Shown here one piece after another: positions 14,835 to 15,245 of a stretch of DNA of 18,060 nt. The DNA comes from Cyclostephanos tholiformis (taxonomy: Eukaryota; Bacillariophyta; Thalassiosirophyceae; Thalassiosirales; Thalassiosiraceae), in assembly GCA_036939975.1 (NCBI GenBank), contig JALLPB010000497.1:1-18060 (forward strand), given 5' to 3'. Every line of letters starts with the position of its first letter. The first letter of the stretch is position 1. The notes below the pieces were generated by a model, which saw nothing but the letters and a program-made list of their open reading frames with translations, was not told the DNA's origin and made no database searches. A program made the position numbers and the translations under genes.

Positions 14835-15245
14835 TTACCCTCACTCCCAATGGATGCGTCATTCAAGTTGCATATCCTTTGGCATTATTGTAACGTGCTT
14901 GGCCTGAATGGTGCAGGCATTGGTGTCCTCAAAGAGGCCAACAAGGTATGCCTTGGATGCCTCCTGGAGAGCAAGCATGCAAGTTGACTGCATATGTAAG
15001 TCCGACTTGAAATCAACTGCAATCTCCCTGACAAAACACTGGAAGGGGGCCTTGCAGATCAAGAGATTGGTGGATTTCTGGTACTTGTGGATTTCACGGA
15101 GGGCAACTGTACCAGGCCGGTACCAATGAGGCTTTTTGACACTGCCCCTCATTGGAAACGCTTTGCGTGCAGCCATAGTTGCAAGATGTTTGTGTGGGGC
15201 TTTTCCCCCAGTTGATTTCTGCACAGATTGTTTGGTGCAGGCCAT
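14835..15245 (-). pseudogene. Histone H3 pseudogene, full length, CpG-decayed
   Basis: Relic of core histone H3. The frame from the ATG at 15245 aligns gaplessly with all 136 codons of H3: start ACTKQ for ARTKQ, then KSTGGKAP, YRPGTVALREI, KYQKST, LVGLFEDTN and VTIMPKD, to a TAA at 14835-14837 where H3 should end. Identity is roughly 70%. Two in-frame stops (codons for Arg128 and Arg134, both CGA to TGA) cut the tail, so the open part ends QLE at 14862. Twelve of 17 arginines are changed, six as CGN to TGN (Cys, Trp, stop) and six as CGN to CAN (His, Gln), the signature of methyl-cytosine decay on both strands. Lys4, 9, 14, 18, 27, 36 and 79 remain; Lys23 is Met. There is no intron. Loss of so many conserved arginines and of the tail argues against function. 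The plant/diatom-type Lys53 and Ser96 fit the host. Confidence 0.93.

Follow-up and report, generated by a model that had tools for sequence, protein, structure and literature searches.

How does a histone H3 gene that has lost most of its arginines come to lie in the genome of a centric diatom, and what disabled it? The window, that is, the whole stretch of 18,060 nucleotides analysed here, is contig C488 of the Cyclostephanos tholiformis genome (24.95 Mb, 1566 contigs). A sequence-only reading had described in it an H3 pseudogene decayed in place through CpG loss, and had proposed it as a calibrated record of methylation-driven decay at this locus. We give a probability of roughly 0.8 to another history, in which a hAT-like transposon captured H3, spread it as cargo and underwent a CpG-biased death, leaving a dead passenger in the window.

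An H3 pseudogene depleted of arginine codons

The intronless pseudogene occupies positions 14835..15245 on the minus strand, as established by translation, by its match to solved H3 chains and by comparison with host H3. Read from 15245 to 14835, it runs for 411 bases from ATG through 136 codons to a TAA, so the full length claimed earlier is borne out, and the strand, which had not been given, can be added. In-frame TGA triplets at codons 128 (14859..14861, minus strand) and 134 (14841..14843, minus strand) leave the frame open for 127 residues after Met and break it before the end of the C-terminal helix; it is because of these two stops that we call the copy a pseudogene. Residues 1-127 align with solved H3 chains over both the fold and the tail (best E 1.4e-55), and in a homolog search the best 120 of 7992 scored candidates are ordinary H3 proteins.

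For comparison we took two intact H3 genes of the host: C706, which lacks introns, and C881, which has two, after residues 19 and 23. Relative to both, the window copy has lost 12 of its 17 arginines, six as TGN (Arg2, 40, 63, 69, 128 and 134) and six as CAN (Arg8, 17, 52, 83, 116 and 131), exactly as had been reported. The host was also checked for AGA or AGG at these codons, and CGN is what we find at 12/12 of them in C881 and at 11/12 in C706, where Arg63 is AGG. The loss is specific to arginine: 5/17 Arg are kept, compared to 12/13 Lys and 77/95 of the other residues common to both hosts (Fisher p = 2e-5, Arg versus the rest). Counted against all substitutions, CpG-type transitions account for 33 of the 122 nucleotide differences from C881; of the 24 non-arginine residue changes, 18 involve two or three base differences.

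Besides the window copy, searching the genome at the DNA level yields two close relatives, one at 91% across 349 bases on C345 and one at 84% across 399 bases on C1336, and several distant ones. C345 stops within H3 at an insertion, and C645 opens with the other end of that insertion, recognizable because its inverted repeats match and the 8-bp duplication, ATGTCAAG, is shared, and continues with the remaining H3. The two insertion halves (C345:1-219 and C645:1-110) probably split what was one H3 copy, B, which additionally has a one-base deletion. Copy C, on C1336, is without its first four codons.

At the 15 CGN-type sites, the window copy keeps 4/15 arginines, B 1/15 and C 1/14. Pooled over the three copies, which are related and not independent, arginine survives at 6 of 44 readable CGN-type codons and lysine at 36 of 39. 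Arg72, encoded by AGG, is retained in all three and serves as an internal control. The replacements (His, Cys, Gln, Trp or stop) differ between copies, and at Arg2, 8, 26, 63, 116 and 128 the copies have changed on opposite strands, which places an ancestral CpG at all six sites. The two decayed sisters therefore support the view that CpG loss hit both strands.

That every lost arginine took a single C-to-T step at a CpG remains tenable for 11 of the 12 sites, and that both stops derive from CGA for one of the two. Codon 128 reads CAA and TGC in the sisters, pointing to an ancestral CGN and a CpG change. Codon 134 is AGA in both B and C, so TGA134 is most simply explained by one A-to-T change, a CGA ancestry requiring three. 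Decay at the window locus itself is likewise doubtful for half of the losses: at sites 17, 52, 63, 69, 83 and 131 the window copy and B, its nearest sister, carry identical codons (at Arg17 and Arg52, all three copies have CAC), so these six of the 12 may predate the window locus.

A hAT-like carrier and its relatives

The H3 copy does not stand alone. Comparison of copies delimits a hAT-like DNA transposon with H3 inside it at 10721..17929, its left end intact and its right end lost. The window matches C345 at 14897-17929, C1336 at 10721-11500 and 11571-15219, and C645 at 10721-10972 and 14080-14901. The window, B and C copies start at one and the same base with CTAGGCTGTACATTCC, inside the terminal inverted repeat (TIR; left repeat at 10721..10736, plus strand) and behind unlike flanks, and H3 lies within the stretch common to the long copies, of which there are at least three at unlike sites. 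The window H3 is a dead passenger within a truncated element.

The terminal repeats of the hAT-like element are CTAGGCTGTAYATTCC. On the right, the window is cut at 17929, and C345 continues for ~165 bases to GGAATATACAGCCTAG, an inverted match of the left end; the TIR pair, read over 16 bases, consists of CTAGGCTGTACATTCC on the left and, as the right end in C345, CTAGGCTGTATATTCC (inverted), the window itself having no right end. A complete element would measure ~7.4 kb. Shorter relatives (C1187, C382, C584, C905 and C1083) have one or both element ends in common with it, and the internal stretch 15550..15649 is also present in C1187, C382, C584 and C905. No H3 was found in the short relatives C1187, C382 and C905, nor in C584 by genome H3 searches. 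An 8-bp target duplication is exact in C584 and C382, two of the four copies with both ends readable, and absent from the other two, C1187 and copy B. The window element has neither a paired TIR nor a target duplication because its right end is missing.

A Helitron, suggested by an apparent TC...CTAG on the minus strand, was ruled out, the window copy being cut at 17929 and the true right end having a matching TIR. Beyond the truncated right end, positions 17930-18060 are unlike the sequence that follows the other copies. Eight bases, GGTAAATG, are common to the left flank of C1187 and the right flank of C345, beside the ends of different copies, and may reflect recombination between elements.

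Tail-to-tail with H3 lies a broken transposase (11703..14266, plus strand), which we read via a relative on C1444. This relative matches DUF659 with E 4.2e-4 and 20.5 bits, below the curated cut-off of 34.7, and one window ORF does so with E 0.055; no domain in the window relic exceeds the curated cut-off, and the hAT dimerisation domain was not seen in domain searches of the window ORFs and the C1444 relative. We call the element hAT-like because its ends, the 8-bp duplications and the weak DUF659 match together point that way. Elsewhere in the window, a long open transposase frame at 85-1662 (DDE_Tnp_4, E 2.1e-18) is without CpG loss (0.98) and presumably belongs to what is perhaps a young Harbinger-type element. 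A PPR protein, also encoded in the window (26 hits), has its best match at 76% among metagenome proteins, with Thalassiosira sp. AJA248-18 at 61% and Discostella pseudostelligera at 59% as the organisms named; the host is accordingly placed, as likely, among centric diatoms of their group.

As to the source of the cargo, at the residues that separate C881 from C706 the element copies are mostly C881-like (Lys53, Ala65, Ser86, Thr87 and Ser96), Ser80 being the one that agrees with C706. None of the element copies has the C881 introns, which is less telling as a sign of capture because C706 is intronless too.

The genome holds further neighbourhoods of this sort. On C134, an H3 relic with a tail insertion (22380-22847, plus strand) lies ~275 bases from a transposase (23959-23123, minus strand), tail-to-tail, and this transposase represents a related but distant hAT-like lineage, 31-44% alike. 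A search for a TIR pair at C134 found none, so the pairing there may be coincidence. An H3 scrap on C1 (31419-31266, minus strand) has a transposase of the C134 lineage (33481-32828, minus strand) 1.4 kb away and in the same orientation. Repeated capture of H3 by hAT elements in the diatom genome is suggested. No H3 turned up in 2.2-3.0 kb of 3' flank from each of 11 other related hAT contigs (C1453, C646, C891, C1045, C1444, C1011, C471, C456, C1439, C1368 and C617), the best forward E being 0.038 and that of the reversed-query control 0.050; this count leaves out C876, C861, C124, C1556, C1060, C1401, C871 and C716.

CpG-poor H3 relics also occur at C176:4393-4761 and C1201:3229-2746, with no hAT match in the adjoining stretch examined. 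The C1201 relic has extra bases at the site of the second C881 intron, so that it may have arisen by duplication at the DNA level. In two minus-strand H3-like genes, C339:54-626 (open) and C990:361-694 (broken), a long additional sequence separates the tail from the fold; both genes lie near a contig end.

CpG decay and selection on the H3 line

The CpG observed/expected ratio is 1.25 in a gene-bearing control stretch (1692..8313), 0.30 in the element and 0.28 in H3, and depletion within the window is limited to repeat-like stretches. The kilobase 9001-10000 has a single CpG (observed/expected 0.02) and includes a 193-base tandem repeat in three copies (9405-9977). In four stretches outside H3, C/T differs between copies at 51/61, 4/10, 34/58 and 12/16 CpG sites, that is, at 40-84%, compared to 6-12% at CpA, CpC and CpT; in the largest non-coding stretch, the 51/61 sites before G stand against 6-11% before A, C and T. 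These counts exclude C/T differences whose neighbouring bases are unlike (91, 12, 72 and 19 in the respective stretches). Within H3, changes polarised by copy C include 2/18 CpG transitions on the window branch and 3/22 on the B branch; this count alone does not show CpG dominance, and it adds little either way because few CpG remained.

Judging by this mutational pattern, methylated CpG in silenced transposon DNA was most likely lost to deamination. A gene for a C5 DNA methylase is present in the genome. In the centric diatom Cyclotella cryptica, according to excerpts of the published methylome, repeats are CpG-methylated in long blocks and genes mostly not, and repeats make up most of the highly methylated regions (PMC5124317). 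Our diatom resembles it in that repeats are set apart from genes in their CpG state, with the difference that methylation was measured there and is here presumed from its mutational trace alone. In Phaeodactylum, loss of DNMT5a is reported to accompany loss of CG methylation and an increase in young-transposon transcript (PMC9998398).

The two host genes, C881 and C706, diverge with ω 0.07. The element copies differ from the hosts with dN of 0.18-0.24 and with dS of 1.98-2.31 versus C706 and saturated versus C881, giving ω of 0.10-0.12 versus C706. Among the copies themselves ω rises to 0.44-0.49, or 0.26-0.37 without Arg. In neutral simulations using a CpG-rich spectrum, with rates chosen manually to approximate the flank counts, the observed synonymous share is mildly above expectation both between the window copy (A) and B (P 0.038-0.112, nine settings) and between A and C (P 0.033-0.065, six settings); without Arg the respective values are P 0.0105-0.020 and P 0.0185-0.0345. 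An absence of stops before codon 127 is no rare outcome under neutrality (P 0.40-0.46 for A-B and 0.17-0.24 for A-C). The check for purifying selection thus finds evolution among the copies near neutral, not cleanly so in simulation, with a residual constraint that is weak at most. Probably, the H3 line was constrained before the copies parted and has been nearly neutral since; the earlier constraint may have acted inside the element or in the host gene before capture. The common ancestor of the element copies was already a divergent H3 relative to the host, so the notion of a calibrated record at the window locus has to be given up: with constraint before the copies parted and near neutrality since, the window copy is no clean clock.

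Competing explanations and known H3-bearing elements

In the scenario that we favour, a hAT-like transposon in a centric diatom would have gained an intronless copy of a C881-type H3 gene, perhaps by way of a transcript or retrocopy, or else from a relative that had no introns and has since disappeared. The transposon carried this cargo to at least three sites, as the common element, the common left end and the unlike flanks show, and the copies were then disabled with the strong CpG bias on both strands seen in the comparisons above, the CpG loss itself probably coming about by methyl-CpG deamination once the transposon DNA was silenced.

It is unlikely, in our judgement, that H3 was for long a selected transposon protein aiding the element in chromatin, and that the copies decayed only recently. 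The ω of ~0.1 versus C706 (at dS ~2), the ω among copies with its mildly raised synonymous share, the second hAT-H3 neighbourhood on C134 and the fungal cases could all be read in this way; however, the constraint was maybe felt in the host gene before capture, the 11 other related hAT contigs have no H3 in their 3' flanks, and the lack of stops before codon 127 is unsurprising under neutrality. A divergent H3 variant that functions even now, or does so as a truncated form of 127 residues, is scarcely credible. It could draw on the open frame after Met and on an ω below 1 between copies, but arginine has been replaced differently in each copy, H3 has lost CpG to the same degree as the element as a whole, B is both split by an insertion and shifted by its deletion, and C lacks the beginning of the gene.

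Two further accounts question either the agent of decay or the status of H3 as cargo. A RIP-like process, mutating repeats in a targeted manner instead of through slow methyl-CpG decay, is improbable: the damage is indeed limited to repeat-like stretches of the window, and fungal H3-bearing hATs were killed by RIP, as excerpts of PMC6710886 describe, but the decay of our element is unlike the fungal RIP pattern because CpA is not favoured, and CpG has not been lost from the intact H3 genes of the host. Very improbable, and already mostly refuted, is the proposal that H3 was never cargo, being an old pseudogene in a duplicated segment or a gene beside which a transposon landed. The relics on C176 and C1201, near which no such transposase was found, speak for this proposal; against it, three copies start at one base inside the TIR after unlike flanks, with H3 within their common stretch.

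Capture of H3 by a hAT-like element has precedents in fungi. hAT elements with an H3 gene have been published for Pyrenophora tritici-repentis (PMC3538342) and six Mycosphaerellaceae (PMC6710886). In the portions of Dhillon et al. (2019) drawn on here, the H3-bearing family is described from Pseudocercospora fijiensis and five more Mycosphaerellaceae (PMC6710886), and the diatom element is like it in its TIRs, 8-bp duplications, tentative DUF659 domain, intronless captured H3, dead copies and intact host gene. These fungi carry 135 to 784 H3-like copies, which died by RIP at CpA, and the P. fijiensis element, ~9.5 kb long, has a 20-bp TIR and contains H3 once or twice (PMC6710886), whereas for the diatom element three long copies were found, decay is at CpG and the TIR is read over 16 bases. 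The H3L transposon of P. tritici-repentis, in the corresponding excerpts of Manning et al. (2013), likewise encloses within its TIRs both a hAT transposase and an H3-like gene, and has an H3 diverged from that of the host as well as short deletion forms (PMC3538342). It comprises 26 nearly identical, largely open, transcribed genes with tail insertions, together with a central ORF, whereas the window H3 is dead and without a tail insertion; the C134 relic has one. A literature search over open-licence papers returned no hAT capture of H3 outside fungi and none for diatoms or stramenopiles. Going by the published descriptions of the fungal elements, the diatom capture belongs to a type already known; what is new is its place in the tree and the way its copies died.

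It is a tentative and rather doubtful thought that hAT elements of distant eukaryotes repeatedly take up H3 as a cargo that at times works, and that these elements gain by bringing their own H3. What leads us to it is that fungi show two unlike element families and the diatom one, plus the second lineage on C134, that the tail insertion of the C134 relic recalls Pyrenophora H3L, and that the element H3 was probably constrained (ω ~0.1) before its death. Repeated uptake of one cargo by one kind of transposon would make a benefit of H3 to the element testable across diatom elements. On the history that we favour, capture of H3 by hAT elements extends from fungi to diatoms, and hence to algae, with death by CpG decay instead of RIP, and the sister copies provide an internal gauge of CpG versus other mutation in the diatom genome that is better than comparison with host H3.
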